Origin: Desulfobulbaceae bacterium BRH_c16a
GTDB taxonomy: Bacteria; Desulfobacterota; Desulfobulbia; Desulfobulbales; Desulfocapsaceae
DNA: 64,000 bases
NCBI GenBank assembly: GCA_000961725.1
Contig: LADS01000036.1
Location: 62,001-126,000 of the forward strand
Direction: 5' to 3'
The translations under genes were made by a program, and so were the position numbers. This document shows, piece by piece, positions 30,857-58,531 of the stretch (position 1 is its first letter; every line of letters begins with the position of its first letter). The notes under the pieces are model-generated. The model made no database searches. It was not told the DNA's origin and worked only from the letters and a program-made list of their open reading frames with translations.

Positions 30857-30858
30857 CT

Positions 30859-42011: not shown

Positions 42012-42046
42012 ACTCTCCTCCTTGTATGAGTTGATCGGGCTGAAGC

Positions 42047-43441
42047 TCAGATTTCAATATCGGCAAAGGTCTCTTCAACCCGGTGCAGCATTTCATCCAA
42101 TATTTCGTAGCTGACATTCAGGGCCGGTTCGATCCTGATCGATTTGGCGTTATTGAGAGTTCCGGCGGTCAGCACCTTCCTGCTGAAAAGGCCGGAGGCC
42201 ACTTTATAGCCGATTTCGTCTGTTGGGAAGACCATTGCCAGGAGCAGTCCTCTGCCGCGGAACTCGGAGAGAATCCGGGGATATTTTTCCTTTAAGGTCT
42301 TGAACCTGGCCATGATGTATTCGCCTTTCTGGGCAGCCTGGCCGGCCAGATCCTCCTCGAGGAGAACGGTAATCTGGGCCAATGCTGCAGCGCAGGCCAG
42401 CGGATTGCCGCCTGTCGTCGTGGTGTGCATGAACGGATTGGGCTCCATGCATTTCCAGATCTTGGCAGTGGAGAAAAAAGCCGACATCGCGACCACGCCG
42501 CCGCCGAGAGCCTTGCCGAAACACATGATGTCGGGAGTGACGTTCCAGTGGTCGACGCCGAAGATCTTGCCGGTGCGGCCGAAGCCGGTCTGCACCTCGT
42601 CGGCGATCAGCAGGACGTCGTATTTGTCGCAGATCTCACGCAGCCGAGGCCAGTATTCATCCGGCGGTACCACGGCTCCCGCCTCGCCCTGGATCGGTTC
42701 GACAACCACCCCGGCAATGCCGTCGCCGACAGTTTGAGAACAGCGAAGAACCATTTCCACCGCGTCGGCATCGCCGAAAGGAACCTGACGCACACCTTCA
42801 AGCAGGGGTAAAAGGGGCTGGCGGTACACCGATTTGCCGATCAGGGAAAGCGCGCCCAGGGATTTGCCGTGGAAGCCGCTCAAGGTGGAGATAAATCCTT
42901 TGCGGCCGGTGTAGAGTTTGGCGAGCTTCATCGCCCCGTCGACCGCTTCGGTGCCGCTGTTGGCAAAAAAACCGTACTGGATATCGCCCGGGGTAAGTTT
43001 GGCGATCACTCGAGCCAGATGAGCCCTGAGCGGATCGAGCATTTCCTGGCTGTATTGGGGGTTTCGGTCGAGCTGGGCCTTGGCTGCTGCGACTATTTTC
43101 GGATGGCGAATGCCCGGCGAGTAGAGGCCGAATCCGCCAAGCATGTCAATGTATTCACGGCCGAGGACGTCGCGCAGAATCGACCCTTCGCCATACCAGT
43201 CGGTGAGGGCGAAATCATCGGTCTCGGTCACCGATTTGCGATATTCGAGGAAGCCCTTGTTGATGTGGTTGGCGAAATTCTGGTAGGTGGTCTCCGCTAC
43301 CCAGCGCCGGTCCTGATCGGAAAGGTCTGATTCCGGCGTGCCGATCAATCCGAGCATTTTTTGCGCTTCCGTATAGGCCAGGTTGATGTCGCGGTCCGAC
43401 GGTTTGCAAGGGGTGTTTACTGCTTCGGGTTCCAGGGTCAT
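42047..43441 (-). CDS. patA: Class III aminotransferase, probable putrescine aminotransferase
   Basis: A 464-aa PLP enzyme, near the length of E. coli PatA/YgjG. FANSGTEAVDGAMKLAKLYT and STLSGFHGKSLGALSLIGKS closely follow the PatA pattern. LLIADEVQTGFGRTGK holds the cofactor Asp, and the Schiff-base Lys is in CFGKALGGGVVAMSA. PatA transfers the amino group of putrescine (or cadaverine) to 2-oxoglutarate, giving 4-aminobutanal. The adjoining AOR gene could oxidise that aldehyde. Another omega-diamine or omega-amino acid is a possible alternative substrate. It is the first gene of the operon, with a TetR-type dyad about 110 bp upstream. Confidence 0.85.
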   Translation of the reverse strand: MTLEPEAVNTPCKPSDRDINLAYTEAQKMLGLIGTPESDLSDQDRRWVAETTYQNFANHINKGFLEYRKSVTETDDFALTDWYGEGSILRDVLGREYIDMLGGFGLYSPGIRHPKIVAAAKAQLDRNPQYSQEMLDPLRAHLARVIAKLTPGDIQYGFFANSGTEAVDGAMKLAKLYTGRKGFISTLSGFHGKSLGALSLIGKSVYRQPLLPLLEGVRQVPFGDADAVEMVLRCSQTVGDGIAGVVVEPIQGEAGAVVPPDEYWPRLREICDKYDVLLIADEVQTGFGRTGKIFGVDHWNVTPDIMCFGKALGGGVVAMSAFFSTAKIWKCMEPNPFMHTTTTGGNPLACAAALAQITVLLEEDLAGQAAQKGEYIMARFKTLKEKYPRILSEFRGRGLLLAMVFPTDEIGYKVASGLFSRKVLTAGTLNNAKSIRIEPALNVSYEILDEMLHRVEETFADIEI

Positions 43442-43552
43442 GGGAGTTCTCCTCGGTTGGTATTCTAGCGAAACGTGGTTGTTTTCAGCGGTCGGTACGA
43501 ATAATGCTGCATTCCTTACTTGATGATTGCCGGCGGCTCAAAAACAATTAAT

Positions 43553-43562
43553 TGATCGATCA
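43553..43562. promoter_or_regulatory. TGATCGATCA dyad, possible TetR-family operator
   Basis: This perfect 10-bp palindrome lies about 115 bp upstream of patA and about 230 bp from the end of the tetR-like gene. TGATCGATCA cores are common in TetR-family operators. It may link the regulator to the patA-AOR operon. Confidence 0.35.
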
Positions 43563-43666
43563 GTAAATAACAAGAAAAAAATATGACCTGTGCTTTTAAC
43601 CGCTTTTTTGTTTGCCTTTCGGGTGGTTATTTTTTCTTTGAAGGTAAGGTACAGCAGGTGTGCCGC

Positions 43667-43726
43667 GTAGGTTGGGCTGTGAAGCCCAACATCCCAAAAA
43701 ACGTTGGGCTTCACAGCCCAACCTAC
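43667..43726. repeat. 24-bp perfect inverted repeat, REP-like
   Basis: The arms at 43667-43690 and 43703-43726 are exact reverse complements, GTAGGTTGGGCT... against ...AGCCCAACCTAC, with a 12-base centre. Each arm itself contains GTTGGGCT...AGCCCAAC. This type of sequence is widespread as an interspersed palindrome in bacterial genomes. Confidence 0.7.
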
Positions 43727-43764
43727 AACTACCGGAAATATCGATAAAATTATTGAACTCGCAG

Positions 43765-43781
43765 GGTGCATTTCATGCACC
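43765..43781. repeat. GGTGCA-N5-TGCACC palindrome (copy 1)
   Basis: GGTGCATTTCATGCACC lies 10 bp past the tetR stop codon. It shares arms with the copy at 44495, so the tetR gene is bracketed by the pair. It may also act as a terminator stem. Confidence 0.55.
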
Positions 43782-43790
43782 GTTTACCTG

Positions 43791-44399
43791 TTAAAAATGG
43801 CCCGTTTTCAAAAGAGCAAGAAGGGCTTTCTTCGCCGTTTCGGCGAATTCTTCAAAAGGCCGAGCTTCGTTGAGAAACTGTGCGTGGAATTCCAGGCCCT
43901 CCATCAAGGTGACAATGTAGTCGGCAGCCCGGCGACTGTCGCTGACCTCGATAATGCCCTTTTTATTGAAGATATCGAGCTGCTCCTGAAGATAATTCCT
44001 GAGCCAGGCGAACATCTTACGCAATCGTTCAAGCGTGCCCTTGTCGCGGAAGCTCTGGTAATAGAAGCCGAAATGCACTCCGGGGTCGACGGTGCGCGAC
44101 CATTGCAGGGAGAAGATCTTGTCGATCAGGGCAGTGAATCGCTCCTCGTCGTCCTCTATATGATCGAATGCCAGCAGATGAGTGGATTTGAATTTTTCGA
44201 TCATCAGCTCGACCAGTTCAGACGTCAGATTGTCCTTGTTTTGAAAATAGTGAAAAATAAGACTGGTGTGGATATTGAGTTTTTTGGCGATCTTGCTGAG
44301 GGAAGCGCCTTCCAGGCCCTCTTTGATGAGGACGTTGTAATAGCTTTCCAGAATTTCCGGCTTACGGAGGGCGGCGGTTTGATTTTTTCTGTTTGGCAT
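43791..44399 (-). CDS. TetR-family transcriptional regulator
   Basis: A 202-aa repressor-like protein. The N-terminal HTH is RKPEILESYYNVLIKEGLEG with SLSKIAKKLNIHTSLIFHYF, the classic TetR layout with Y/F at the end of the recognition helix. The C-terminal ligand-binding domain follows (about 60-200). No good ribosome site is visible before the ATG. It lies upstream of the patA-AOR-moaD operon on the same strand and is a candidate regulator of it; the ligand is unknown. Confidence 0.85.
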   Translation of the reverse strand: MPNRKNQTAALRKPEILESYYNVLIKEGLEGASLSKIAKKLNIHTSLIFHYFQNKDNLTSELVELMIEKFKSTHLLAFDHIEDDEERFTALIDKIFSLQWSRTVDPGVHFGFYYQSFRDKGTLERLRKMFAWLRNYLQEQLDIFNKKGIIEVSDSRRAADYIVTLMEGLEFHAQFLNEARPFEEFAETAKKALLALLKTGHF

Positions 44400-44494
44400 A
44401 GCGTTTTTTTGCCCACTTAAGGGAATTAAAGTTCAGGTTTCCATATTCTGCCTCAATATACTTTGTCAAGAAAAATGTCCGATGAAGCGGGTAG

Positions 44495-44511
44495 GGTGCA
44501 CTGCGTGCACC
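44495..44511. repeat. GGTGCA-N5-TGCACC palindrome (copy 2)
   Basis: GGTGCACTGCGTGCACC, in the intergenic region upstream of tetR and birA; same arms as the copy at 43765. Confidence 0.55.
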
Positions 44512-44545
44512 TTCCAACTAAATCCTGTGGCGCCGGACAAGTTTC

Positions 44546-44596
44546 TTGACATTCGCGCGGCAAAACGGTTAACCAGAGTTTTATTGATGGTTAACC
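44546..44596 (+). promoter_or_regulatory. birA promoter with BirA-type operator (copy 1)
   Basis: TTGACA at 44546-44551, a 17-base spacer and TTAACC form the promoter. The operator GGTTAACC (44567-44574), 14 bases, GGTTAACC (44589-44596) covers the -10 hexamer. Known BirA sites have TTGTWAACC and its complement about 14-16 bases apart. It should let biotinyl-AMP-bound BirA repress its own gene. Confidence 0.65.
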
Positions 44597-44615
44597 ATTA
44601 AAACGTAAAAAGAAA

Positions 44616-45536
44616 ATGAAAAATAAGATAATGGCAATACTGCGGGAATCCCCGCAACCACTCTCGGGCGAAGAGATCGGCCGACAGCTGCAGGTCTCGC
44701 GGGTGGCCATTTGGAAGCATATCGATCAGCTGAAGAAGAGCGGGATCGAGATAGAGTCAACGGCAAAAGGCTACCGCCTGCTGGCGACGCCCGACGCCCC
44801 ATTCCCCTGGCTGTTCGGGGCCCGGTCGTCCCTGATTCATTATCATCCCGAACTCGATTCCACCATGAATCGGGCAAAAGAATTGGCCCGCGCCGGCTGT
44901 CCGGAATATACCGTGGTCATCGCCGACCGTCAGACAGAGGGGCGGGGGAGGATGCAGCGGGTCTGGCAGTCGGAAGAGGGCGGACTGTATTTTTCCATCG
45001 TGCTCAGGCCGTCGCTGATCCCCAAGGAGGGGCCGTTGGTCAATTTTGCCGTGGCGCTCGATCTGGTCGAAGCCCTGGAGCAATGCTGCGGTATTGCCGC
45101 CCAGGTCAAATGGCCGAACGATGTCCTGGTCGATGAGCGCAAGATTGCCGGGATCCTGTCGCAGATGGAATTCGAGGCCGACCAGATCACCTTTATCAAT
45201 ATCGGTATCGGCCTCAATCTCAACAACCGGCCGGAGGTGGCCGATAAGCCCGCAGTCTCCGCCCTGCAGCTTACCGGCAGGCGTGTTAACCGCGCCGAGG
45301 TGCTCTCCTGTTTTCTCGATCTCTTTGAAAAGCGGATGGCGACGTTTTCCCGGCCGGGCGTTATCGAGGCCTGGAAGGCCAGGACCGTCACCCTCGGGCG
45401 GAGGGTGACGATAGCCACCGTCCGCGACACCTATGAGGGACTGGCCGTCGATGTCGATGAAGACGGCGGACTGATTCTTGAAATGGCGGATGGCATGCGG
45501 CGCACCGTTTTTTACGGCGATTGTTTCCACTCGTAA
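44616..45536 (+). CDS. birA: Bifunctional biotin ligase / biotin repressor BirA
   Basis: A 306-aa protein. The N-terminal winged helix (1-60) is KIMAILRESPQPLSGEEIGR followed by SRVAIWKHIDQLKKSGIEIE. The ligase domain (80-255) has the biotinyl-AMP loop EGRGRMQRVWQS, LDSTMNRAKELA, QVKWPNDVLVDERKIAGILS, and NIGIGLNLN. The SH3-like C-terminal domain ends GMRRTVFYGDCFHS. It attaches biotin to the carrier protein encoded nearby (47177-47398) and as repressor should bind the operators at 44567 and 57626. The ribosome site is weak. This is the intact copy; a deleted copy is at 57693-57884. Confidence 0.95.
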   Translation: MKNKIMAILRESPQPLSGEEIGRQLQVSRVAIWKHIDQLKKSGIEIESTAKGYRLLATPDAPFPWLFGARSSLIHYHPELDSTMNRAKELARAGCPEYTVVIADRQTEGRGRMQRVWQSEEGGLYFSIVLRPSLIPKEGPLVNFAVALDLVEALEQCCGIAAQVKWPNDVLVDERKIAGILSQMEFEADQITFINIGIGLNLNNRPEVADKPAVSALQLTGRRVNRAEVLSCFLDLFEKRMATFSRPGVIEAWKARTVTLGRRVTIATVRDTYEGLAVDVDEDGGLILEMADGMRRTVFYGDCFHS

Positions 45537-45547
45537 CCCCCACAAGG

Positions 45548-45742
45548 GTCCCCGGGGCGGCTATCTCTTTGGCTTTCTCGCCTGTACCTGGGTGGTCGGT
45601 AAGATTTCGGAGGTGTCCGGGCGACGGCAGCTGGCGGCGTTTTTTGCCGCCTGTGCCTGCTCGCGGCCGGGCGGCTGCCGGTCATCGCCCGGGCCTTCTG
45701 CGTACCCGGCAGGAGGAGTAAGGCTATAAAAGCAATTATATA
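45548..45742 (+). pseudogene. Scar of a second bioY-bioN-ygiM segment
   Basis: Short blocks match the intact biotin-uptake locus in the same order: 45548-45628 matches bioY at 58196-58276, about 45632-45661 matches bioN near 59400, about 45662-45690 matches bioN near 59592-59620, and about 45691-45742 matches the 5' end of the ygiM-like gene near 60636-60686 (coding on the minus strand, FIALLLLPGTQKA). bioM is missing completely. None can encode a working protein. The blocks follow directly after birA. Confidence 0.8.
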
Positions 45743-45791
45743 ATAACCTCGCTGATACATGCACATGGATGATGCATTCATTTGAGTAATG

Positions 45792-47141
45792 TCACGACGA
45801 CCTAGTCGCTAAAAGTTCCGCGAGCATTTCAGTATGGAAGATTCCCCGCCGGAACGCCTCGCTGGCCATCACCGCCGTACCCAGCGGAATGGTGGTTTTA
45901 ATGCCTTCGATGGTGAATTGCTTCAGGGCCTGATCGAGACGGTCGATGGCCTGGCGGCGGTCCTCTCCTCGGGCGATGAGTTTCGCCAGCATGGGATCGT
46001 AGAAGGGAGAAACCGCAAGACCGGACTCCATGGCGTGGTCGAGCCTGGTGTCTTTCGACAGGGTGGGAAAGGTGATTGTCCCGATTGTCCCCGGCGACGG
46101 CAGGAAGGTCGACGGGTCTTCGGCGTAGATGCGGGCCTCGATGGCGTGGCCGTGGATGACGATATCCTCCTGCCGCAGTTGCAGGGGCTCGCCCATGGCG
46201 ATGCGCAGCTGCTGTTGCACCAGGTCGATGCCGGTGACCATTTCGGTGACCGGATGTTCCACCTGGATGCGGGCGTTGACCTCCATGAAGTAGTACCGGC
46301 CTTCGGCGGAGCGGATGAATTCGACCGTTCCCGCGTTCCTGTAGCCCATCTCCTTCAGGATCCGGACCGACCAGGCGCAGAGCCGCTCCCGCTCTTCCCG
46401 CGTTACCGCAGGCGACGGGGCCTCTTCCACCACCTTCTGAAAGCGTCGCTGCACTGAGCATTCCCGTTCGCCCAGGGCGACGTAATTGCCGTAGTGGTCG
46501 CCCAGGCACTGGATCTCGATGTGTTTCGGGGTTTCGATCCGCTTTTCCACGTAGACATCCGAGGAGCCGAAAGCCGCCTTGCCGATACCCATCGAGGATT
46601 CGAAAATCCTGGCGATTTCCGCGGCATGGTGAATGGGCTGGATGCCCTTGCCGCCGCCGCCCTTGTCGAGTTTCAGGAGCAGGGGCGGGCCGTGTTCGGC
46701 GAACAGTTTTTCAATCTCAATGAGACTCGTCACATTGCCGATACTTCCCGGAGTGACCGGTACTCCCAGCCGGTTACCCAGGTTGCGGCAGAAGGATTTG
46801 GATTCGATATCCCGGATCACCCCCGGCGAGGGACCGACCCAGATCGTGCCGGCATCCTCGACCGCTCCGGCAAAGGCCGCGTTTTCCGATAAAAAGCCGT
46901 AGCCCGGATGCACGGCGTCCGCCCCGGACTCGGCCACCGCCTTCATGATGCCGGCAATGTGCAGATAACTCAGCGGCGGCGGCGATTTGCCGATATGGAT
47001 CGCCTCGTCCGCCGCGCGCATATGCGGCGCGCCGTTGTCGGCATCCGAGTACACGGCCACGGTTTTGATCCCCAGTTCCCGCGCCGCCTTGAAAATCCGC
47101 AGGGCGATTTCGCCCCGGTTGGCTACAAGCAATTTTTTCAT
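45792..47141 (-). CDS. Biotin carboxylase subunit (AccC-like)
   Basis: A 449-aa ATP-grasp enzyme that carboxylates biotin on a carrier protein with ATP and bicarbonate. MKKLLVANRGEIALRIFKAA opens it, HPGYGFLSEN follows, the Gly-rich ATP lid is LDKGGGGKGIQPI, and catalytic residues lie in RECSVQRRFQKVVEEAPSP and MEVNARIQVEHPVTEMVTG. It is full length. It is the last gene of the pxpA-permease-pxpB-pxpC-BCCP operon, so it likely serves a dedicated carboxylase rather than fatty acid synthesis; no accA, accD or accB/fabF context is present. Confidence 0.92.
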   Translation of the reverse strand: MKKLLVANRGEIALRIFKAARELGIKTVAVYSDADNGAPHMRAADEAIHIGKSPPPLSYLHIAGIMKAVAESGADAVHPGYGFLSENAAFAGAVEDAGTIWVGPSPGVIRDIESKSFCRNLGNRLGVPVTPGSIGNVTSLIEIEKLFAEHGPPLLLKLDKGGGGKGIQPIHHAAEIARIFESSMGIGKAAFGSSDVYVEKRIETPKHIEIQCLGDHYGNYVALGERECSVQRRFQKVVEEAPSPAVTREERERLCAWSVRILKEMGYRNAGTVEFIRSAEGRYYFMEVNARIQVEHPVTEMVTGIDLVQQQLRIAMGEPLQLRQEDIVIHGHAIEARIYAEDPSTFLPSPGTIGTITFPTLSKDTRLDHAMESGLAVSPFYDPMLAKLIARGEDRRQAIDRLDQALKQFTIEGIKTTIPLGTAVMASEAFRRGIFHTEMLAELLATRSS

Positions 47142-47176
47142 CTTTTTTCCATCGTGTTGTGTTTTGCGCCTTTATT

Positions 47177-47398
47177 CTAGGCCGCGTCGATCGCCACCAT
47201 AGCATCTCCGACCTGCAGCTCATCCCATTCCTTGACCAGAATGCTCCGTACCGTACCGGAACGGTCGGCCGTCACCGGGATCTCGGTCTTCATGCAGTTG
47301 ATCACCGCCACTTCCTGGCCCTGTTCCACTTTGTCGCCTACGGCTACCACCACCCTGGCAACGAGACCGGGCATGGGGGCCATTATGTTTTGTTCCAT
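47177..47398 (-). CDS. Biotin carboxyl carrier protein (short biotinyl domain)
   Basis: A 73-aa protein consisting of a single biotinyl/lipoyl domain: MEQNIMAPMPGLVARVVVAV, then the biotinylation hairpin VINCMKTEIPV (Lys in CMKTE, where most carriers have AMKM), then VKEWDELQVGDAMVAID. Start 47398 has AAGGAG; an upstream in-frame start at 47440 has none. The long N-terminal extension of AccB is missing, as in the carrier ends of urea carboxylase and related enzymes. BirA, encoded 1.6 kb away, should biotinylate it. Confidence 0.9.
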   Translation of the reverse strand: MEQNIMAPMPGLVARVVVAVGDKVEQGQEVAVINCMKTEIPVTADRSGTVRSILVKEWDELQVGDAMVAIDAA

Positions 47399-47446
47399 TG
47401 TATTTTCTCCTTTTTCTGTTGCGATCCGTGCCTGTTTCAAGGACCC

Positions 47447-48433
47447 CTATTTGGTTATTGCATCTTCGCTGTACTGCGCCTTTTGCGTTTTACGCGCCTC
47501 AATTGCCTGTTCCCTTGTGCAGAGGGTGAAGGCGAATTTGTCGCGCGAGGGGGTGCCCTGGCCGATCTTCCAGAGGTCGGCGTAAATCACCTGCAGGACG
47601 TTGATGTAGCCACCGAGGGTCGGGCCGTCGGCGATCAAGAGGATCGGGGTGTTGCCGCACAGGTTCATGGTGCCGCGGATGGCATAGCCATGGTCGACGA
47701 TGTTGGAGGGATGACTGCCCCCCACGCCGCCGTCCTTACGCGCAAAGAAATAATCCGGCACCGGGGAAATACGGTACGCCGACCGGTTCGAGGTGTGCTG
47801 GATCTTGTGCTCGCTGCCGTAGAGATAGTCCATGCCTTCCCCGGTCACATAGTCCGGACAGGTGTTCGGCCCGGGAACCGCCCGCAGTTCCCAGACCCGC
47901 GAATACTCGGGCATGTAGCTCTTTTTCAGTTTTCTGCCGGCAAGGCTTGTGAGACTTTGCGAGGGTGTGCCGGTCCTCAGGAGATCGCCGGCCGCAAGTT
48001 TTCTGCCTTCAAAACCGCCATAGCCGCCGAAGATGCAGGTCGACTTGCTGCCCAGATAGGCGGGAACGTCGAAGCCGCCGGCAACCGCCAGGTTGGACCG
48101 GAAGCCGAACTCGCCGAAAACCCCGATATTCAGGTGATCGCCCTTGTTCACCGGGACCGCTTCCCACATCGGGATGGCTGCGCCGTTGACGGTCGGTTTC
48201 ATGTCCGAGCCGCACAGACTCATCACCGTATCCTGTTGAAATTCTATTTCGACATAGCCGCCGGCGATTTCCAGACCGGCCTCGGTAATCGGATTGCCGA
48301 CCAGCAGGTTGGCGAACTGCATGGACATATTGTCCATCGCCCCGGAAGCGGCCATGCCTTTGCTCAGATAGCCGAGCCGCCCCGGCCAGTCTTCCACTAT
48401 GGTTTCAATTCCTGGTTTGATAATGTGCAACAT
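47447..48433 (-). CDS. PxpC / AHS2-family carboxyltransferase subunit
   Basis: A 328-aa protein of the KipA/PxpC (AHS2, allophanate hydrolase subunit 2) family. IIKPGIETIVEDWPGRLGYL and GMAASGAMDNMSMQFANLLV are family-defining, with NIGVFGEFGFRSNLAVAGGF and GGVGGSHPSNIVDHGYAIRG further on. ATG 48433 follows AAGGAGAT. PxpB and PxpC form the carboxyltransferase-like half of 5-oxoprolinase and are homologous to the middle of urea carboxylase. Beside biotin carboxylase and carrier genes a true carboxyltransfer role is likely. Confidence 0.88.
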   Translation of the reverse strand: MLHIIKPGIETIVEDWPGRLGYLSKGMAASGAMDNMSMQFANLLVGNPITEAGLEIAGGYVEIEFQQDTVMSLCGSDMKPTVNGAAIPMWEAVPVNKGDHLNIGVFGEFGFRSNLAVAGGFDVPAYLGSKSTCIFGGYGGFEGRKLAAGDLLRTGTPSQSLTSLAGRKLKKSYMPEYSRVWELRAVPGPNTCPDYVTGEGMDYLYGSEHKIQHTSNRSAYRISPVPDYFFARKDGGVGGSHPSNIVDHGYAIRGTMNLCGNTPILLIADGPTLGGYINVLQVIYADLWKIGQGTPSRDKFAFTLCTREQAIEARKTQKAQYSEDAITK

Positions 48434-48452
48434 ATCGTCGATCTCCTTTGCA

Positions 48453-49439
48453 TTAAAGGCGGGGGGCCGTTTGCGCGCCTTTTGCCTGCCTTGCCTGAAA
48501 TTCTTCCGTTTCCTGCAGAACCGCAGGCGATTGAACGAATTCGACATAGTCCTTCACCACGATCTCGCCCGGTTCGATGTCGTATTCGTAGTCGGTCTTG
48601 TCATGGACATGTTCGTAGATGCGCAGAATCTCCGCCTCGCTGGTCTCATGGAATTGAATCCGGTCGCCGTTGACATAGAGAAAGGGCGACTCCTTGAACA
48701 GCGGATGTTTCTGGGCGAACTGAAAAACCGGGATGGTTCGGCCGAACAGTTGGTAGCCGCCGCCGGTGGCGGTGGTGTAGGTGAATACGCAGGGGCCGCC
48801 GATGCCCACTGTCCCTTCCGGGGTCCAGGTCCGCGGCGGGTTGTATTTCGGCACCACCAGCGCGCAACGGGGATCCATGGGCCAGAAGAAGCCGCCGCCC
48901 GGCCAGAAGCCGCCGCCGGAATTGTACCACTCGGTGCCGAGGAGGGTTTGCTTGACCTCCGCCGCCGTCATGCCGTTGCACATGGCGATGTATTCGAGAT
49001 TGTAGCCGTCGATCACATTCGGCGCCTCGGGTCTGACTTCCTTGAGGTATTTCGCCACGCATTTCTTCGTCTCGCTGTCCTCGAAGGCGATCGGCAGGTG
49101 GATGAGGCGGGAGGGCATGACGATATGGTCGACATCCGCCAACTCCGACTCGAATTTTTTAATCATGTCGATCAACAGCCGCACATCGAGGATTTCCGGG
49201 TCGAAGTGGAGCATATTCGTCCGGATGCCGGGGAGGGTTTCGATGAATCCCTCCGGCGCCGCCTCGCGAATGCGGGCATCGATGGTCTGGATTCTGAAGG
49301 AGTCGAGCAGGTTCGCCCGCTGGTCCCTGCCGTACTCGACCTGCAGAAATCCGTCGCCGGCCTGCCGGAACAGGACTTCCAGGCGCGTGGCGGTGGCCGG
49401 CAAGGTGTCGAGGATGACCTCGTAACGATTCGTTTCCAT
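48453..49439 (-). CDS. PxpB / AHS1-family carboxyltransferase subunit
   Basis: A 328-aa member of the KipI/PxpB (AHS1) family. IVMPSRLIHLPIAFEDSETK, then YNLEYIAMCNGMTAAEV, the Pro/Gly-rich YNPPRTWTPEGTVGIGGPC and YTTATGGGYQLFGRTIPVFQ are the usual blocks. It is longer than KipI of Bacillus, resembling the AHS1 region of urea carboxylase. ATG 49439 overlaps the permease stop codon (TAATG). PxpC follows 19 bp downstream, and the two should form a complex. Confidence 0.87.
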   Translation of the reverse strand: METNRYEVILDTLPATATRLEVLFRQAGDGFLQVEYGRDQRANLLDSFRIQTIDARIREAAPEGFIETLPGIRTNMLHFDPEILDVRLLIDMIKKFESELADVDHIVMPSRLIHLPIAFEDSETKKCVAKYLKEVRPEAPNVIDGYNLEYIAMCNGMTAAEVKQTLLGTEWYNSGGGFWPGGGFFWPMDPRCALVVPKYNPPRTWTPEGTVGIGGPCVFTYTTATGGGYQLFGRTIPVFQFAQKHPLFKESPFLYVNGDRIQFHETSEAEILRIYEHVHDKTDYEYDIEPGEIVVKDYVEFVQSPAVLQETEEFQARQAKGAQTAPRL

Positions 49440-50812
49440 TATTCTATTTCTCCCTTGCCGATGATGGACATTGCTGCCCCGGGAACCGTCTTTTCGCTGA
49501 ATCCGAGCATCCGGTAGAGGGCAAATCCGCTGATTGCGCTGCACGGCGACGAGAATGACGCTACCGCCGGTATATTCATCATCACAATACCGACGATCAC
49601 CGCACCGAACCAGGCGATCAGGCCGCGCGAATTATAGTTTGGATAGTCGCCGTCATTTTTCGAGGCTTCGGCCGGATGCTCGTCGTCGGCTTCGTTCAGC
49701 ATATACGCCAGGGCAATGGCAACCCAGGCCACGACAAAAACTCCCTGATAGGCCAGGGCCTGGAGCAGATAGCTGAATACGTCGACAAGCATCAGCACAT
49801 ACACGATACAGCCAACGACCACCGCCCAGAAATATTTCGACAGTTTGATGCCGAAAGCCTGCTTGCCCAGCGCTTCGAGGTTGACTGAAGCCAGATAGTA
49901 GTTGGCGGTGTTGATTCGGGTTTGCGTAACCCAGACGAAGAGAAGACCGAAGCCCCCCATCATGATGATGATGGCCTTGACCGCCGACACCTCGGACAGG
50001 GCTCCGTCGATCGGAATGGTATTGACGAGGAAGATTCCCGCGACTCCGCTCAACAGAAATGCGGCAATATAGAAGGGCGCTCCGAAGTTGAACAGCGCGT
50101 GATAACGCTCATCGGATTTCTTGCCGAACCGGGCGTAATCGAAACAGAACATCATCAGAATCCACACCCCCATGTAGGCCACATAGACATGCCACCATCC
50201 CATTGCCGGGGCTCCGCCCTGAGGCACCGATGTCAACCATGCGTTGCTGTAGCCGTATTCGTTGATTGCCAGGCCGACGCAGGTGGCGAGGCCTAAGAGG
50301 TAAACGGGAAGCAGGACGCCGTTGAATTTATCCAGCCAGTGCTGGACGCTGCCGAAAACAAGCGGCACGCTTACCACGACGACAATCAGTGCCGCGGTCT
50401 TGTAGCTGAGTCCCGGTTGGAAAAAATTGGCAGCCATCGCGATGACCGACCCTTCGAACACCGCATAGTAGATTGCGGTTGCAGCAAAGATAAGGGTGGC
50501 AAGGGCAGATCCCGTCCTGCCGAATAGAATGCGCGAGAACAACGAAACCGACGATCCGGTACGGATGGCGTAGCGACTGATGACCATGTTGATCGCCGCG
50601 TAGGTGACAACAGAAAGGCCGATGCCGATGAGCGTATTGACCGTGCCGTATCCCATCGCAAGGGTTGCGGCAACCACCACGTAAAACATGGCGCTGCAGC
50701 AGCTCCACCACGCCATCGTCAGCGAGAAGTGAGAGGTTCGACCATCCTCAGGTACCGGACTGCATGCATAATCCAATTCAGCTTCACTGAGCTCTTTGAT
50801 TTTTTTCGACAT
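49439..50812 (-). CDS. NCS1-type (cytosine/purine permease-like) transporter
   Basis: A 457-aa inner-membrane protein with about 12 membrane segments. FSLTMAWWSCCSAMFYVVVA at about 29 and YAIRTGSSVSLFSRILFGRT are typical of nucleobase:cation symporter-1 proteins, which carry cytosine, purines, hydantoins, allantoin or thiamine. AAGGAG precedes the ATG. It sits between pxpA and pxpB, so it probably imports the substrate of the operon's enzyme, plausibly a small cyclic amide or ureide. Confidence 0.85.
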   Translation of the reverse strand: MSKKIKELSEAELDYACSPVPEDGRTSHFSLTMAWWSCCSAMFYVVVAATLAMGYGTVNTLIGIGLSVVTYAAINMVISRYAIRTGSSVSLFSRILFGRTGSALATLIFAATAIYYAVFEGSVIAMAANFFQPGLSYKTAALIVVVVSVPLVFGSVQHWLDKFNGVLLPVYLLGLATCVGLAINEYGYSNAWLTSVPQGGAPAMGWWHVYVAYMGVWILMMFCFDYARFGKKSDERYHALFNFGAPFYIAAFLLSGVAGIFLVNTIPIDGALSEVSAVKAIIIMMGGFGLLFVWVTQTRINTANYYLASVNLEALGKQAFGIKLSKYFWAVVVGCIVYVLMLVDVFSYLLQALAYQGVFVVAWVAIALAYMLNEADDEHPAEASKNDGDYPNYNSRGLIAWFGAVIVGIVMMNIPAVASFSSPCSAISGFALYRMLGFSEKTVPGAAMSIIGKGEIE

Positions 50813-50855
50813 AAAATTCTCCTTTGTTGAGTTATTTCAGGTGAAACGTACGCTT

Positions 50856-51605
50856 TCAGGCCGGTGCCTCGATGGCATAGCCGTTTTCGCCCAGGACTTT
50901 GCGGATGGCGGTCACAATTGCTACGCCATTGGCGCTGTCCGAGTGCACACATATCGATGAGCCGGAAATGGCGATGTCGCTGCCGGCCGTGGTCGTCACC
51001 TTGTTGTCCCGGACCATGCGCAGCACCCTGGCGGCTACATCCGCCGGCGCATGGGCAGCGTGGTGCCGGGTGATGACCAGATTGCCGTCCCGGTCGTAAT
51101 CGAGATCGGAATAGATCTCGAAAACTGTGGGGATGCCGAATTGGTCGGCGATCTCCGCAAGAACGCCCTTTTTCATGCAGTAGAGAAAGGGCGTGCCGTC
51201 CAGGTCGCGAATCGCCGTGCAGAGTGTTTTCGCGACATCCTGGCGCAGGTGGGCCATGCCGTAGAGTTTGCCATGGGGCTTGACATGGTGGAGACGCATG
51301 CCCGAGGCGTGGAGGAAGCCTTGCAGCGCGCCGATCTGGTAGATCAGGTCGCAGTACAACTCGTCCATGGCGATATCCATCGTTCGGCGGCCAAATCCCT
51401 GCAGGTCGGGAAGGCCCGGATGGGCGCCGACCGCCGTACCGTGCTCCCCTGCGAGAAGCACCGTCCGGCGCATGGCGCAGGGGTCGCCGGCATGAAAACC
51501 GCAGGCGACGTTGCTGCTCGAGATCAGCGGCATAAAGCCCGCATCGTCGCCCAGGGTGTACATGCCGAAGCTTTCTCCCATATCCACATTCAGATCTATT
51601 TTCAT
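50856..51605 (-). CDS. pxpA: PxpA / LamB-YcsF family protein
   Basis: A 249-aa protein beginning MKIDLNVDMGESFGMYTLGD, with SSNVACGFHAGDPCAMRRTV, GAHPGLPDLQGFGRR and HHVKPHGKLYG, the conserved blocks of the PxpA/YcsF family. PxpA with PxpB and PxpC makes the prokaryotic 5-oxoprolinase, which opens 5-oxoproline to glutamate with ATP. AAAGGAC lies upstream of ATG 51605; an in-frame start 30 codons earlier lacks a site. It is the first gene of the operon, with a sigma-54-like promoter about 90 bp upstream. Confidence 0.88.
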   Translation of the reverse strand: MKIDLNVDMGESFGMYTLGDDAGFMPLISSSNVACGFHAGDPCAMRRTVLLAGEHGTAVGAHPGLPDLQGFGRRTMDIAMDELYCDLIYQIGALQGFLHASGMRLHHVKPHGKLYGMAHLRQDVAKTLCTAIRDLDGTPFLYCMKKGVLAEIADQFGIPTVFEIYSDLDYDRDGNLVITRHHAAHAPADVAARVLRMVRDNKVTTTAGSDIAISGSSICVHSDSANGVAIVTAIRKVLGENGYAIEAPA

Positions 51606-51690
51606 GATGAGGGTCCTTTGCCGATAGGTTGTTGCCGAATCTGCGCTTAATATGTTGCTGTGATGCGTCCGGCTTATGATGTATGGTAAA

Positions 51691-51707
51691 AGCAAAGGAT
51701 GGACCAG
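51691..51707 (-). promoter_or_regulatory. Sigma-54-like promoter of the pxp operon
   Basis: Minus-strand CTGGTCCATCCTTTGCT has GG-N10-GC spacing and a good -12 element TTTGCT; the -24 element TGGTCC departs from TGGCAC. Predicted leader about 75 bases before pxpA. Confidence 0.5.
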
Positions 51708-51907
51708 AACGCAAAAGACCTTGCGTATAGATTTAACTAATTGAAATTATATACTAATAATTGAAAAATTAGTTATATTAGGCCGGAGGCGGCGCGACAT
51801 CGATAGCGCCGAGATCATGGAAAATCCTGCGGCGAACTGGAGGGAGGAGGGCAAGGTTTTAATGGAGATGGCGGGGAAGGATGGCGGCGACATGCGCAGA
51901 CCGGCAT

Positions 51908-52143
51908 GCGACGTAAATGTCTTTCCACCATGGGTGTACATGGATCAAAGCGATTGGCCTGGTATCCAGCACAAATACCTGGAGGTCAAAAACTGCTGCG
52001 GGACTACTACCGGAGTCGCGACATTTACGTCTTTGTCTCTCATAGCGATGACATCCTAGTAAGTTTATAAAATAATGGATTTTATTTATAGTAATCTCGG
52101 TATAATCGCTTGCGGTTCATTGCCATCCGGACATTTATGTCGC
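51908..52143. promoter_or_regulatory. Three dyads GACRT-WW-AYGTC spaced 110-111 bp
   Basis: GCGACGTAAATGTC starts at 51908, GCGACATTTACGTC at 52018, and GGACATTTATGTCGC at 52129. Core arms GACAT/ATGTC are perfect in the third and have one mismatch in each of the other two. The third lies about 110-125 bp before the predicted torT-like transcription start, a normal enhancer position for a sigma-54 activator such as the one encoded at 56169. Confidence 0.5.
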
Positions 52144-52225
52144 AAGCCGATTGTATTCGTTACCGACAACCCGGCGCAACCACGTTGAAGATATAAGAGG
52201 AAAAACTCGGTAACAAGCAGTTCAC

Positions 52226-52242
52226 TTGGTATATTTATTGCG
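52226..52242 (+). promoter_or_regulatory. Sigma-54-like promoter of the TorT-HK-regulator operon
   Basis: TTGGTATATTTATTGCG shows GG-N10-GC spacing with TTGG at -24 and ATTGC at -12. The predicted start near 52253 gives a leader of about 50 bases. Confidence 0.5.
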
Positions 52243-52303
52243 ATAAAATAAACGCGAGAGCGTTTTGCTCTCGGTAGTTTTTCGCCAGAGGAGAAAGTCA
52301 TCC

Positions 52304-53545
52304 GTGAAGAGCAATACCCCTCTGTTCCCATTCCAGCTTATTCGGCGCGGTCGTGTTCTGCGTGTCATTCTTGCCTCCTTCTGCGCTCTTTTTCTGTTCT
52401 TGACAGCTTTTCAAGCCCAGACCGAGGAATTGCCGGTTAACAGTTACTATGGTCGCTATGACGCTTCCCAGAAAAAACCCGGTTTTCCGGCCGCCGGCCT
52501 GACGGGGCCAAAAACGGAAAACTGGTCTCCCGTTCGCCCGGCAAAAGAGTACCATGTCGGCATTCTCCTGCCGCATCTGAACGATTCCTACTGGGAGACC
52601 GTCAATTTCGGGATTGTCTCCTATGCCGAAAAGCAGGGCATCCGGATAACGGTGTATCTGGCCGGCGCCTACACCGATCTCGGTAACCAGAGGAGCCAGT
52701 TGCAGACTTTGGTTGCCAAGGACAAAACCGATGGAATTATACTGGCCTCCGTGGATTACCAAAAAATGGATCCTTTTGTCGCCGAGGCCGATCGGGCCGG
52801 GGTCCCGGTAGTGGCGCTGATCAACGACATCTATGCCCCGGCAATCAAGGCCAAGTCCATGGTTTCCTTTCACGAGATGGGCTACAAAGCGGGGGAGTAC
52901 GTGATGCATCGTGCCGGAGAAAAGGACTTTTCCGTGGCTTTTTTCCCCGGCCCCCGGGAGTCGGGATGGGCCTCGGATACGTACCATGGCTTTCTTGCAG
53001 CGGTTGCCGGACTGAAGGCGGATCGGCAGAATGTGACGGTTTTCCCGCCGCTGTACGGAGATACCCGACACGATGTGCAGCAGATGCGACTGGACGCCCT
53101 GAATAAAAAGCAATACCACGGTGTCGATTACATTGTCGGCAATGCCGTTGCGGCAGATGAGGCGGTTTCCTATCTTGCCGGTCATCGGCAGATCCATCCG
53201 GATGCAAAGATCGTCGCCACCTACCTGACCACGACCGTCTACGAGCAGATAAAAAAAGGCCTCATTCTGGCCGCGCCGTCGGATCAGATCATCTCCCAGT
53301 GCCGGATTGCCGTGGATATGATGGTGAGAATTCTGAATGGGAAAAGGGCCGGTATCGATTTTCCCTTTCGTGCTTCCGCCTTGATTCCTCTTATCACCAC
53401 CGACACCATCGGCATGTACGAGTATGAAAGGCTCTTTGGCGATCGTAATTTCCAGCCGGTGTACAGCGAATTTGAACCGCCTTCGCAGGCCGGCAGACCC
53501 TACGGCCCGCAGCAGCGCGATGACGATGCTGCAAAAAAGAAGTAA
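52304..53545 (+). CDS. TorT-like periplasmic binding protein of a two-component system
   Basis: A 413-aa secreted protein of the type I binding protein fold. GTG 52304 has AGAGGAG upstream. The signal peptide ends near TAFQAQTEE. The mature part has YHVGILLPHLNDSYWETVNF, then GYKAGEYVMHRAG, and DYIVGNAVAADEAVSYL, resembling TorT, the protein that binds TMAO and activates TorS. The gene is followed two bases later by a histidine kinase gene, so it should be the ligand-binding component of that sensor. The ligand is unknown; the divergent pxp operon suggests a cyclic amide or ureide rather than TMAO, and no torCAD genes are nearby. Confidence 0.82.
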   Translation: MKSNTPLFPFQLIRRGRVLRVILASFCALFLFLTAFQAQTEELPVNSYYGRYDASQKKPGFPAAGLTGPKTENWSPVRPAKEYHVGILLPHLNDSYWETVNFGIVSYAEKQGIRITVYLAGAYTDLGNQRSQLQTLVAKDKTDGIILASVDYQKMDPFVAEADRAGVPVVALINDIYAPAIKAKSMVSFHEMGYKAGEYVMHRAGEKDFSVAFFPGPRESGWASDTYHGFLAAVAGLKADRQNVTVFPPLYGDTRHDVQQMRLDALNKKQYHGVDYIVGNAVAADEAVSYLAGHRQIHPDAKIVATYLTTTVYEQIKKGLILAAPSDQIISQCRIAVDMMVRILNGKRAGIDFPFRASALIPLITTDTIGMYEYERLFGDRNFQPVYSEFEPPSQAGRPYGPQQRDDDAAKKK

Positions 53546-53547
53546 CT

Positions 53548-56172
53548 ATGGGAACCCGTATGGCAGGATCTGCAATGGCAAAACAAATAAAAAATCATCG
53601 GCAAGACCGTTCCATCGCCAGGCGGTTGACCGTGAGCCTGATGATCACGGTCGGCATCGTCTCCTTCATGACCGTCGGCCCAATATATTACCAGGAAGCC
53701 CAGAAAAACAAAAAGGAGCTGGAACAAAAGGCGGACGATATCATCGCCTATCAGATCGGCGTCCTCGCCAAACCGCTCTGGGATCTTGATCGGCAGGCCA
53801 CAAGGATCGTCGGCGAAACAATCGTCCAGAATGAACTGGTGGCCCGGCTGACCATCAAGGATTATTTCGGCCGGGTGGCTTTCTCGTATGAGAATCCCGA
53901 TCTTTCAGGGTCGATCAACCGATCGGCCGAGGTCAGGCACCATGACGATTTCGTCGGCGACGTGTTTATTTCCCTGACCGACAAGTATTGGCGAAACAAG
54001 AATCATAACCTCCTTACTTCCTTCGTCATCACCATCTTTTTCATCCTGTGCGCCCTCACCCTTGTTTCCGGCCTGCTTGTCCGCACCTATCTGCGCAAAC
54101 CGCTCGACCGGCTGAATGCCATGGTCGGAGCGTATGCGGGGGGCGAGTATGAGGCGATCGACAGTTATCAGCCCTATACCGAATTCAAGCCGTTCACCCA
54201 GGTCCTCGATCAAATGGCCAGGCAGATTGTCGGCCAGCTGAAGGACCTCGCCACAGCCGAAGAAAAGTACCGGTCTATTTTCGAGAACGCGATTGAAGGC
54301 ATATTTCAGTCGTCTCCTGAAGGGCGCTATTACAGCGTCAATCCTGCCATGGCCGAGTTGCTGGGGTATTCGTCGCCCGCCGAACTGCTCTCTTCCATCA
54401 CCGACATCGCGACCCAGACTTATGTGTCGGCCGACGACCGCAAGCGATTGAACCGATTGCTCGACCAGCATGGTCGAGTGATCGAGTTTGAAACCGATCT
54501 GCGTCGAAAGGACGGTACCGTTATTTCGGTGGCCATCTCCGCCAGGGCCGTACGGAACGACGGCGGCACCACCCTCTTTTATGAAGGGTATCTGGTTGAT
54601 ATAACCAGAAGAAAAAAAGCAATCGAGGCCCTGCATCAGACCACGGAGCAACTGGCCCTGCTGCTTGAGTCGCTGCCGATCGTGGCGTACACGGCACGAG
54701 CCGGGGGCGATTTCGGCATCAATTATGTCAGCAACAGCATCGAAGAAATCACCGGCTATGCGCCGGAGTGCTTCACCGGCGATGCGGCATTCTGGGCCGA
54801 CCACCTCTTGCCCGAGGACGGCCGAAAGGTGGTCGACGAACTGCCGATATTGCTTGAAAAAGGCAGGCAACGTTGCGAATACCGCTTCCGCACCGCCGAC
54901 GGCTCGTATCGATGGTTCGACGATACCCGGCGTCTTGTCCATTCGCCGGACGGGAGCTGCAGCCATATCGCCGGCACCTGGCGGGACGTGACCGAGGAAA
55001 AACGGCTGCGCAGCGAAGCCGACTATCGTCTGCAGCAGGTGGTGATGGCCGACAAGCTCGCCTCCCTGGGCCAGGTGGTCGCGGGAGTGGCTCATGAGGT
55101 ATGCAACCCCAACAGTTTCATTGCCTTCAATGTGCCGATTCTTGAAGAGACCTGGCGGATTTTCACGCCGATACTCGACGACTTTGTCGAACAGAATCCA
55201 GGGTGGCGGTATCGCACGCTCAGTATCCATGAGCTTCGCCAGGACATGGAGCAAACCATCGAGCATATTAAAATCGGTTCGGACCGGATCAACAGGATTG
55301 TCTCCCATCTGAAAGATTTCGTCCGCACTGACGAAGGAATACCGCCACGCCTGATCCAGTTAAACGAGGTTGTCGAAAGCGCCTTCACCATTGTCGGCGC
55401 TCATGCCCGCAAATCCGTCGCTGCCATCGAGATATCGCTCCAGCCCGAGCTGCCGCCGGTTCAAGGTTATTTTCAGAAACTGGAGCAGGTCTTCACCAAT
55501 CTTGTGGTCAACGCCCTGCACGCCATGCCGGTTAAAAGCAAGGGCAGGCTGAGCATTCGAACCGGGTACCTGGCACATTGCGGGGCGGTTATCCTGCAGG
55601 TCGAAGACAATGGCGCCGGCATGGAGCCGGAGACTATGGAACGGATTTTCGAGCCCTTTTTCACCCTTCGTCGGGATAGCGGCGGCACCGGCCTTGGCCT
55701 TTCGGTTTCCTACAATCTCGTCAAGGAACATGGCGGCGTAATCGGCGTACTGTCCCGTCCCGCCATGGGGAGCAGGTTTACGGTGTTTCTGCCCGTCACA
55801 GCCGAAACCCTGCTCGATTTTCGACCGGCCATGCTCTGTCTCCATCGTGACCCTGTTTTTCTCCGGGATCTGGTATCGTACTTTTCCGAGAGTGGCGAGA
55901 CGCTCTATGTGCAAAACGATCTTGGGGGATGCTTCGAATGCCTCGAGCAGCATCCGGAAATCGATCTTCTTTTTGTCGATATTGCGACACTCCTGCCGAC
56001 CGGTGTCCGGTTCCTGGCTGACCTTTCGGCCCGGTTCCCCCTGATCGCCCGGATTCTGCTGGGAAGCGGCGGTGTCGAAGGGATACGGCAAGCCGATCAT
56101 ATCGTCCATGCTCCATTTCAGGTGTCGCAGTTAAAAAAAATCATAGAACAAACTGTAAGGCAAAGACTATGA
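53548..56172 (+). CDS. Hybrid-like sensor histidine kinase with two PAS domains
   Basis: An 874-aa membrane kinase. TM1 is at about 27-47 and TM2 at about 155-178, flanking a periplasmic domain of about 105 residues that may contact the TorT-like protein. A HAMP region and two PAS domains (about 245-355 and 365-480, the second followed by WRDVTEEKRLRSE) precede the kinase core. The H-box is VVAGVAHEVCNPNSFIAFN (Cys where HEINNP is usual), the N-box LVVNALHAMP, and the lids DNGAGMEPE and GGTGLGLSVS. The last 110 residues form a degenerate receiver-like domain with Asp in LLFVDIAT but no acidic pair. Start is uncertain among 53548, 53560 and 53575. Its stop overlaps the regulator start (ATGA). 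Confidence 0.88.
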   Translation: MGTRMAGSAMAKQIKNHRQDRSIARRLTVSLMITVGIVSFMTVGPIYYQEAQKNKKELEQKADDIIAYQIGVLAKPLWDLDRQATRIVGETIVQNELVARLTIKDYFGRVAFSYENPDLSGSINRSAEVRHHDDFVGDVFISLTDKYWRNKNHNLLTSFVITIFFILCALTLVSGLLVRTYLRKPLDRLNAMVGAYAGGEYEAIDSYQPYTEFKPFTQVLDQMARQIVGQLKDLATAEEKYRSIFENAIEGIFQSSPEGRYYSVNPAMAELLGYSSPAELLSSITDIATQTYVSADDRKRLNRLLDQHGRVIEFETDLRRKDGTVISVAISARAVRNDGGTTLFYEGYLVDITRRKKAIEALHQTTEQLALLLESLPIVAYTARAGGDFGINYVSNSIEEITGYAPECFTGDAAFWADHLLPEDGRKVVDELPILLEKGRQRCEYRFRTADGSYRWFDDTRRLVHSPDGSCSHIAGTWRDVTEEKRLRSEADYRLQQVVMADKLASLGQVVAGVAHEVCNPNSFIAFNVPILEETWRIFTPILDDFVEQNPGWRYRTLSIHELRQDMEQTIEHIKIGSDRINRIVSHLKDFVRTDEGIPPRLIQLNEVVESAFTIVGAHARKSVAAIEISLQPELPPVQGYFQKLEQVFTNLVVNALHAMPVKSKGRLSIRTGYLAHCGAVILQVEDNGAGMEPETMERIFEPFFTLRRDSGGTGLGLSVSYNLVKEHGGVIGVLSRPAMGSRFTVFLPVTAETLLDFRPAMLCLHRDPVFLRDLVSYFSESGETLYVQNDLGGCFECLEQHPEIDLLFVDIATLLPTGVRFLADLSARFPLIARILLGSGGVEGIRQADHIVHAPFQVSQLKKIIEQTVRQRL

Positions 56173-57539: not shown

Positions 57540-57604
57540 TTCGTATTTTTTCTTTGTGGTCGGGCTAAGCAGGGTGAAGGAAATGTACCCTGTGACAAAG
57601 CTTC

Positions 57605-57655: not shown

Positions 57656-57692
57656 GATTGCGGCGAAACGATCGAAATAAAAAAAGAAAACC

Positions 57693-57884: not shown

Positions 57885-57945
57885 CCCCCACAAGGGAATG
57901 CCGGTTGTCGGTCAAAACAAAAAAATCAACATGATTGAGGCGAAC

Positions 57946-58509: not shown

Positions 58510-58531
58510 ACCAAGTCTCTATAAAGTCTCT

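Follow-up and report, generated by a model that had tools for sequence, protein, structure and literature searches.

The DNA stretch considered here, called the window, comprises 64,000 nucleotides of Desulfobulbaceae bacterium BRH_c16a (assembly GCA_000961725.1, contig LADS01000036.1, positions 62,001 to 126,000 of the forward strand). At 45792-51605, on the minus strand, it harbors a six-gene operon in which a PxpA-type hydrolase and a permease are found together with the two carboxyltransferase (CT) halves, the biotin carboxyl carrier protein (BCCP) and the biotin carboxylase (BC) of a putative split biotin-dependent enzyme:

50856-51605, minus strand: PxpA/LamB/YcsF-type hydrolase, 249 residues (LamB_YcsF PF03746, 290 bits)
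49439-50812, minus strand: NCS1 permease, 457 residues (Transp_cyt_pur PF02133, 34.7 bits)
48453-49439, minus strand: CT_C_D half (labelled AHS1 or "PxpB"), urea-carboxylase type, 328 residues (CT_C_D, 136 bits)
47447-48433, minus strand: CT_A_B half (labelled AHS2 or "PxpC"), urea-carboxylase type, 328 residues (CT_A_B, 250 bits)
47177-47398, minus strand: biotin carrier BCCP, 73 residues (Biotin_lipoyl, 61 bits)
45792-47141, minus strand: biotin carboxylase BC, 449 residues (three Pfam BC domains, 117.5-211 bits)

Each gene runs from an ATG to a stop codon, and the gaps from pxpA to the BC gene are 43, -1 (a TAATG overlap), 19, 48 and 35 bp. The original prediction had placed pxpA, an NCS1 permease, AHS1, AHS2, a 73-residue carrier and BC here on one strand with short gaps; all six lie where it put them, and Pfam backs each of them. 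Its names "PxpB" and "PxpC" turn out to be misleading, as both CT halves score better against urea carboxylase (TIGR02712).

Among 395 genomes of the phylum, a CT_C_D match with E ≤ 1e-20 occurs in 12. Besides the window's own genome, these comprise eight with a split relative (44-82% identity), two with a fused enzyme of 1,200 residues and one with a shorter, distant form. A single further split copy (G041, 66%) occurs among 144 nearer relatives, own genome included, and the operon is thus patchily distributed. When 84,980 species genomes were scanned with two peptide patterns, 303 pattern matches were obtained, and 248 CT_C_D relatives were confirmed by tblastn. The best 80 of these 248 (L053-L132) are called pattern-found loci below; 26 of them are shorter than 12 kb, and neighbour counts use the other 54 (the long loci). 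By record title, the relatives belong to Thermodesulfobacteriota, Firmicutes, Rokubacteria, Chloroflexi/Thermomicrobiota, Actinobacteria and Thaumarchaeota, and a clear version of the operon, with an ATP-binding cassette (ABC) importer and BioY, resides on a plasmid of Thermomicrobium roseum. Since the gene set is present in other phyla, it is not a chance grouping. The controls are 23 ordinary PxpB loci (17 of at least 12 kb) from one phylum, retrieved by their weak similarity to the window CT_C_D.

Profile scans give the CT_C_D half 225 bits against urea carboxylase TIGR02712 versus 44.6 against PxpB TIGR00370, and the CT_A_B half 282 bits against TIGR02712 versus 170 against PxpC NF045499, all below the family cut-offs (1303.85, 145.55 and 500 bits for TIGR02712, PxpB and PxpC, respectively). 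The pair therefore does not qualify as PxpB plus PxpC, with 44.6 against 145.55 bits and 170 against 500 bits. Nor is it a urea carboxylase proper, defined as a single BC-CT-BCCP chain above the TIGR02712 cut-off, the parts being separate proteins each below 1303.85 bits. What it shares with the urea carboxylase branch is the full complement of BC, BCCP and CT parts and the general-base lysine of the CT site. For both halves, the top match of solved structure is the Kluyveromyces lactis urea carboxylase. An AlphaFold model of the CT_C_D half (39 sequences in the alignment, predicted local distance difference test (pLDDT) 93.1) superimposes on the urea carboxylase CT domain (3VA7) with Z 34.2 over 322 residues and 30% identity in the structural alignment; the values for the longer PxpB-type chains are Z 15.0-19.8 over 199-214 residues. 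The single-sequence model of the CT_A_B half was unusable (mean pLDDT 28.6).

In trees, both window halves group with the fused urea carboxylases and with two plasmid loci linked to BC, and the branch parting the urea-carboxylase-type halves from the 23 control loci has a support of 100/99 for CT_C_D and 97 for CT_A_B. The split group forms one side of a branch in the CT_A_B tree (support 80); in the CT_C_D tree it does not, the fused urea carboxylases nesting weakly inside it (90/88). About half of the pattern-found rows were dropped from these trees, and so were, as short or interrupted, L091 (CT_C_D) and L063, L097 and L126 (CT_A_B). By score, fold and tree, the CT halves belong with urea carboxylase and not with ordinary PxpB/PxpC.

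A catalytic residue follows the same division. According to the available text of PMC5770610, Lys1605 of the K. lactis urea amidolyase likely acts as general base in the CT site. Lys198 of the window CT_C_D, within the motif KYNP, pairs with it (counted back from residue 1615 of the alignment). This lysine is kept in 11/11 proteins aligned without pattern selection (window included) and in all seven fused urea carboxylases, and it is found in none of the 23 control PxpB rows, of which 22 have Arg and one Leu (control L050 holds two paralogous sets, and the row used is the one nearer ordinary PxpB). It is also present in 78/78 ungapped rows of the pattern-found loci; this count is biased because one of the two search patterns contains KYNP, and the case rests on the 11 pattern-free proteins and on PxpA, which was not pattern-selected.

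The window PxpA scores 287 bits against NF003814 (cut-off 226) besides its 290 bits with PF03746, and is a true member of the PxpA family. It retains the residues common to operon and control proteins, e.g., D8, E11, H38, D41, H62, K109, H111, E163, D167 and H221. The control PxpAs have Arg at the equivalents of both positions 168 and 179 in 23/23 rows, a two-arginine feature of PxpABC that was found here and is not a published criterion. The window protein lacks both arginines, with Leu168 and Thr179. Position 168 is Leu in 68/71 pattern-found and 10/10 pattern-free loci, and position 179 is Glu or Thr in the same proportions (68/71 and 10/10); these counts exclude one gapped row and compare 81 rows with duplicates included, six of the ten pattern-free loci being on the same contigs as pattern-found ones. 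The loss of two positive charges would fit a substrate that, unlike 5-oxoproline, has no carboxylate, or an activated form devoid of phosphate. The window PxpA is likely the ring-opening subunit.

These data bear on one reading of the annotation, an ordinary 5-oxoprolinase PxpABC that happens to lie beside acetyl-CoA carboxylase genes. The database names and the genuine family membership of PxpA speak for it. However, an ordinary PxpB-PxpA-PxpC set is present elsewhere in the same genome, on a different contig (L051), and the lactam operon proposed below is thus not needed there for 5-oxoproline; at least one further CT_C_D gene occurs in 6/10 carrier genomes, some of the ten being incomplete. 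Moreover, the operon PxpA lacks both arginines, the CT halves are of another lineage, and neither BC nor BCCP is found near control PxpB loci (0/17 long, 0/23 of any length). An ordinary 5-oxoprolinase, rejected on these four counts, is very improbable.

The BC aligns over almost its full length with solved biotin carboxylases, and the BCCP matches solved biotin carriers. The MK of its CMKT tetrapeptide, which contains the biotin lysine, is the predicted biotinylation site; an xMKx tetrapeptide is present in 73/73 carriers cut from relatives (duplicates included; register unchecked). In the 54 long loci, the core consists of PxpA (54), CT_A_B (54), BC (49) and BCCP (47). The 17 long control loci have PxpA (17) and a CT_A_B-like gene (17); against their 0/17, the Fisher values are 2.5e-12 for BC and 3.3e-11 for BCCP, which are indicative, as the loci are related by descent and not independent. 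The genome has five Biotin_carb_N matches in total, four besides the operon BC, and the latter is therefore probably dedicated. That BC and BCCP are mere neighbours serving fatty-acid or acyl-CoA carboxylation is suggested by their NCBIfam names, those of acetyl-CoA carboxylase parts. The genome's four PF01039 matches are, however, on other contigs (C18, C18, C28 and C6), two of them (C28 and C6) within ~2 kb of other BC genes, and the BC/BCCP pair accompanies the CT halves in different phyla. Such a chance neighbourhood was rejected on both grounds, and hardly any weight is left to it.

With its CT halves closest to urea carboxylase, the operon might also encode a split urea (or guanidine) carboxylase. 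Urea amidolyase requires an allophanate hydrolase partner: none is found in 32 kb of the window, and none of full length in 90 operon loci (91 sequences in all; six contigs are counted twice among the 90, and some loci are short). Only partial matches occur, in L111 and L113 (36-38% over 168-169 residues). The urea-amidolyase-associated proteins UAAP1/2 are matched in none of the 91 sequences; among the fused positive controls, L159 and L160 matched both allophanate hydrolase and UAAPs, and L161 UAAPs only. Some conserved CT_C_D positions also differ from those of the seven fused enzymes (Gly145, Tyr150 and Phe178 in the window for Pro, Phe and Val). With no full allophanate hydrolase match and a PxpA gene in 54/54 long loci, a split urea carboxylase was rejected and is a most unlikely alternative.

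The nature of the product is suggested by the genome context. A γ-aminobutyrate (GABA) transaminase (at least 40% identity) lies in the flanks of 21/54 long loci versus 0/17 controls, in 18 cases no farther than 6.5 kb from the CT_C_D start, and the three in-operon aminotransferases scanned all exceed the GABA transaminase cut-off of TIGR00700 (575-580 versus 506.65 bits). An above-cut-off GABA transaminase is present in 10/10 carrier genomes (7 genera). In a sample of 198 genomes of the phylum it is found in 22, five of them carriers (5/5 versus 17/193, p = 1e-5; carrier status assumes that this sample lies within the 395 genomes searched with CT_C_D). In the window's own genome, it directly adjoins an aldehyde ferredoxin oxidoreductase (AFOR; L157). 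One locus (L060) brings together an ABC importer, PxpA, GABA transaminase, the CT halves, BCCP, BC, glutamate dehydrogenase and AFOR, possibly a complete route from lactam to succinate as judged from the families of its genes. This context points to an omega-amino acid as the product, most likely GABA, and hence to a lactam such as 2-pyrrolidinone as the substrate.

We therefore favour, with moderate confidence, the reading of the operon as a split, biotin-dependent lactam-opening system, its substrate being most likely 2-pyrrolidinone and its product GABA. We infer the substrate, the carboxylation site, the order of the steps, the formation of a complex and the regulation by the binding protein, kinase and regulator described below. 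The NCS1 permease would import a small cyclic amide, most likely 2-pyrrolidinone (γ-butyrolactam). BC would use ATP and bicarbonate to carboxylate the biotin on BCCP, and the CT_A_B and CT_C_D halves would move the carboxyl group to the lactam, thereby weakening its amide; the nitrogen is the most likely site, in view of the analogy to urea carboxylase, and O-carboxylation is a possibility. The PxpA-type hydrolase would then open the activated ring, and the resulting N-carboxy amino acid would lose CO2 to yield GABA or a closely related omega-amino acid. A GABA transaminase and an aldehyde oxidoreductase would convert this product to succinate. The logic would parallel that of urea amidolyase (carboxylate, then hydrolyse), with PxpA in place of allophanate hydrolase. 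The original prediction of a biotin- and ATP-dependent carboxylation and ring opening of an imported amide, ureide or lactam thus appears well founded, as judged by CT kinship, the lysine and the frequency of BC (49/54 versus 0/17), and the genome context would narrow it to a lactam.

The same carboxylate-then-hydrolyse machine may instead act on another cyclic amide, such as valerolactam, caprolactam, hydantoin, a dihydropyrimidine or a ring-hydroxylated N-heterocycle, a possibility that we hold to be real and distinctly the lesser one. It draws on the family of the permease, on the caprolactamase-like HyuAB genes of 7/80 loci, on molybdenum hydroxylase-type genes in the Thermomicrobium locus and in 3/54 long loci, and on an ene-reductase in 10/54. 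Against it, GABA transaminase is the most frequent of the catabolic neighbours queried (21/54), and it is also among the larger recognised clusters (21 loci) when all reading frames are grouped. Hydantoin and dihydropyrimidine yield no transaminase substrate without a further hydrolase.

Several observations weigh against the favoured lactam-opening reading. NCS1 permeases elsewhere transport hydantoins, ureides and nucleobases, and GABA transaminases often also accept 5-aminovalerate, so that valerolactam stays a candidate. The transaminase is in the flanks of just 21/54 long loci and is absent from the window's own operon; the class III aminotransferase of the window (42047-43441) is of the putrescine type (647 bits versus a cut-off of 612). 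AFOR enrichment taken alone is not significant (12/54 versus 1/17, p = 0.17), and BC was not found in 5/54 long loci. HyuAB-type genes adjoin the operon in L077, L079, L086, L088, L111, L114 and L129, and substrates may thus differ between branches; the scanned HyuAB pair, from L088, scores best against caprolactamase without reaching the cut-off. Two of these loci, L079 and L088 of Dethiobacter, have a PxpA with Arg at 168 and Lys at 179, and the archaeal L116 has Met at 168 and Arg at 179. A second CT_C_D gene was not found in 4/10 carrier genomes (some of the ten incomplete), hence the two systems do not always occur together. Finally, L163 of Rhizobium has BC and BCCP next to a PxpB devoid of the lysine, and lysine and biotin genes are thus not always coupled.

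The latter locus is one of six plasmid loci, of which three (L163, L164 and L165) have BC and BCCP, two of these with the lysine, and the other three have neither. Plasmid operons of other CT lineages with BC, BCCP, PxpB/C-like and PxpA genes are those of Rhizobium johnstonii (L163, lysine absent), Natronorubrum (L164, lysine present) and Rhizobium sp. WL3 (L165, lysine present). The combination is accordingly not unique, as it also occurs in Rhizobium and a haloarchaeon.

Biotin-supply genes flank the operon, as expected if the biotin demand is real, and adjoin it in L041:

44616-45536, plus strand: BirA biotin-protein ligase (TIGR00121, 193.5 bits, above the cut-off of 83.1), convergent with the operon
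57826-58509 (start uncertain), plus strand: BioY substrate component of a biotin transporter (PF02632, 154 bits)
58532-59281, plus strand: energy-coupling factor (ECF) transporter ATPase, BioM-like (TIGR04520, 233 bits, under the cut-off of 315)
59269-60024, plus strand: ECF transporter T component, BioN-like (PF02361)

Between the operon and the BioY gene, a divergent set of putative sensory genes follows an intergenic region with candidate regulatory sites:

51691-51706, minus strand: possible sigma-54 promoter (GG-N10-GC) upstream of pxpA, with two mismatches to TGGCACN5TTGCW
51910-51921, no strand: palindrome GACATTTAYGTC copy 1, possible regulator site
52020-52031, no strand: palindrome copy 2
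52130-52141, no strand: palindrome copy 3
52265-53545 (start uncertain), plus strand: TorT-like periplasmic binding protein (PF13407; PRK10936 above cut-off), divergent from the operon
53548-56172, plus strand: membrane PAS sensor histidine kinase, which may partner the binding protein (PAS and HATPase domains; two hydrophobic segments ~125 residues apart)
56169-57539, plus strand: sigma-54-dependent response regulator (Response_reg and Sigma54_activat)

The three near-identical palindromes, spaced by exactly 110 bp, are located between the TorT-like gene and pxpA; GACATTTAYGTC has just these three copies within the 64 kb of the window versus 0.39 expected (at most one mismatch). The window has no excess of sigma-54-promoter-like matches (19 versus 30.5 expected), which makes the promoter candidate a weak one, and an Rfam scan of 43000-61000 gave no match. 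TorT-like homologues occur in 14/54 long relatives versus 0/17 controls, in some relatives within the operon along with an ABC transporter; sigma-54 regulators (17/54 versus 4/17) are not clearly enriched. Devoid of an ABC partner and next to a membrane kinase and a sigma-54 regulator, the window's TorT-like protein may sense the substrate. The NCS1 permease, likely responsible for substrate uptake, occupies the place held by an ABC importer in several Thermodesulfobacteriota relatives, and five actinobacterial operons of this kind contain permeases 46-50% identical to it. Elsewhere in the window (29434-34294) lies an ABC transporter of the branched-chain/urea type, made up of two permeases (one UrtB-like), two ATPases and a binding protein, with scores below the urea-transporter cut-offs.

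The neighbour counts used hand-chosen query proteins, with a clustering of every long reading frame of the 54 loci as a check; the biggest unnamed groups in it look like antisense frames of operon genes. Besides the genes already counted, the long loci harbor a sugar-type ABC ATPase (15), BioY (8), NCS1 (6), BirA (5), glutamate dehydrogenase (5) and an SSF symporter (3). The long controls have two ABC ATPases and one ene-reductase, and none of the rest. An Old-Yellow-Enzyme-type reductase adjoins the operon or lies near it in L041, L043, L044 and L045, where the lactam is perhaps unsaturated. Thermomicrobium and Sphaerobacter (L040, L103 and L104) have a molybdenum enzyme of the xanthine-dehydrogenase type ahead of the operon, with an aldehyde or a ring as its possible oxidation substrate. 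In 14/80 loci (L054, L061, L062, L069-L074, L076, L078, L080, L092 and L093), all presumably Bacillota by title or by our placement of the genus, there is a gene for a small membrane protein with DUF1097. In the window, AFOR and the putrescine-type aminotransferase (40290-43441) and a PotD-like polyamine-binding protein (61902-63032, below cut-off) are also found, and together they may constitute a route from putrescine to GABA around the lactam operon.

The gene set is widespread, as the 248 confirmed relatives attest, and has been named piecemeal after other enzymes. The candidate substrate, the catalytic lysine and the two-arginine signature make its function directly testable, and it could account for the role of one branch or more of the split urea-carboxylase halves. 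If the favoured reading is true, biotin chemistry would extend from carboxylation to amide-bond cleavage, and the operon would show how anaerobes feed on lactams. More speculatively, biotin-borne CO2 may be a general activator of stable amide bonds, lactams being N-carboxylated before hydrolysis, with urea amidolyase as one branch and ordinary PxpBC perhaps borrowing carboxylated biotin from other carboxylases, for which PDB entry 9YX5 offers a hint. Many of the genes now named PxpB/C, "biotin-dependent carboxyltransferase" or AccBC would then encode members of a new, biotin-dependent class of amidohydrolases.

Among known systems, the K. lactis urea carboxylase/urea amidolyase (3VA7, 5I8I) matches the operon in BC, CT_A_B, CT_C_D and BCCP, and agrees with it in CT fold and general-base lysine. 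It differs in that the window chains are split, a PxpA-type hydrolase stands in place of allophanate hydrolase, and the identity is 30% in the CT_C_D structural alignment. The split urea-carboxylase halves were unstudied as of 2011, according to the available text of PMC3199775. PxpABC 5-oxoprolinases (E. coli YbgJK type, 5DUD; C. glutamicum pxpTABC) share with the operon the PxpA family and a distant CT_C_D/CT_A_B homology; unlike it, control PxpBs lack the lysine, control PxpAs have two arginines and no BC/BCCP lies near the 23 control loci. The C. glutamicum pxpTABC genes are essential for growth on 5-oxoproline (PMC13274462, in part), and the main text of that article contains neither "carboxylase" nor "bicarbonate". 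In PDB entry 9YX5 (released 2025-11-26), a PxpB/PxpC-like pair (MSMEG_0435-MSMEG_0436) is, by the entry title, bound to the Mycobacterium smegmatis long-chain acyl-CoA carboxylase. Compared by title and sequence matches, this pair differs from that of the window in its short PxpB type and in its sharing of acyl-CoA carboxylase subunits, and it provides independent support for a biotin link. The caprolactamase CapAB of Pseudomonas jessenii has an ATP-dependent lactam opening in common with the proposed system; it is a two-subunit enzyme of the hydantoinase/oxoprolinase family, for which the available text of PMC8453981 proposes carboxyphosphate-based routes. In the open-licence literature searched, no article was found that links lactams to a bacterial BC/BCCP/PxpA operon or states a function for the combination of BC, BCCP, PxpB/C-like and PxpA genes, which is not proof of absence.

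A further parallel is fungal. The lamA and lamB genes of Aspergillus nidulans function in lactam catabolism and are controlled, like gatA and gabA, by the regulator AmdR (available text of PMC8016842). In the accessible part of PMC3412718, B. subtilis YcsF, of the PxpA family, is related to LamB, with 2-pyrrolidinone named as lactam, and KipA is related to yeast urea amidolyase. A. nidulans P38095 serves as the urea carboxylase query in PMC3073912, whose available text describes a 1,241-residue urea carboxylase of this fungus and also lists urease. The window's operon resembles lamA/lamB, known here through descriptions, in its PxpA/YcsF-family protein (LamB) and in the GABA genes gatA and gabA under AmdR. 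It differs in a carboxylase split into four proteins and encoded in prokaryotic operons, often with importers and a GABA transaminase nearby. We take P38095 to be LamA, and LamA to be a one-chain urea-carboxylase-like protein; if so, the fungal pair would be the fused form of the operon. Compared by gene content and not by fungal sequences, the operon combines a urea-carboxylase-type carboxylase, a PxpA-type protein and a GABA link, and it is best read, with the lamA link partly our own assumption, as a prokaryotic counterpart of lamA/lamB.

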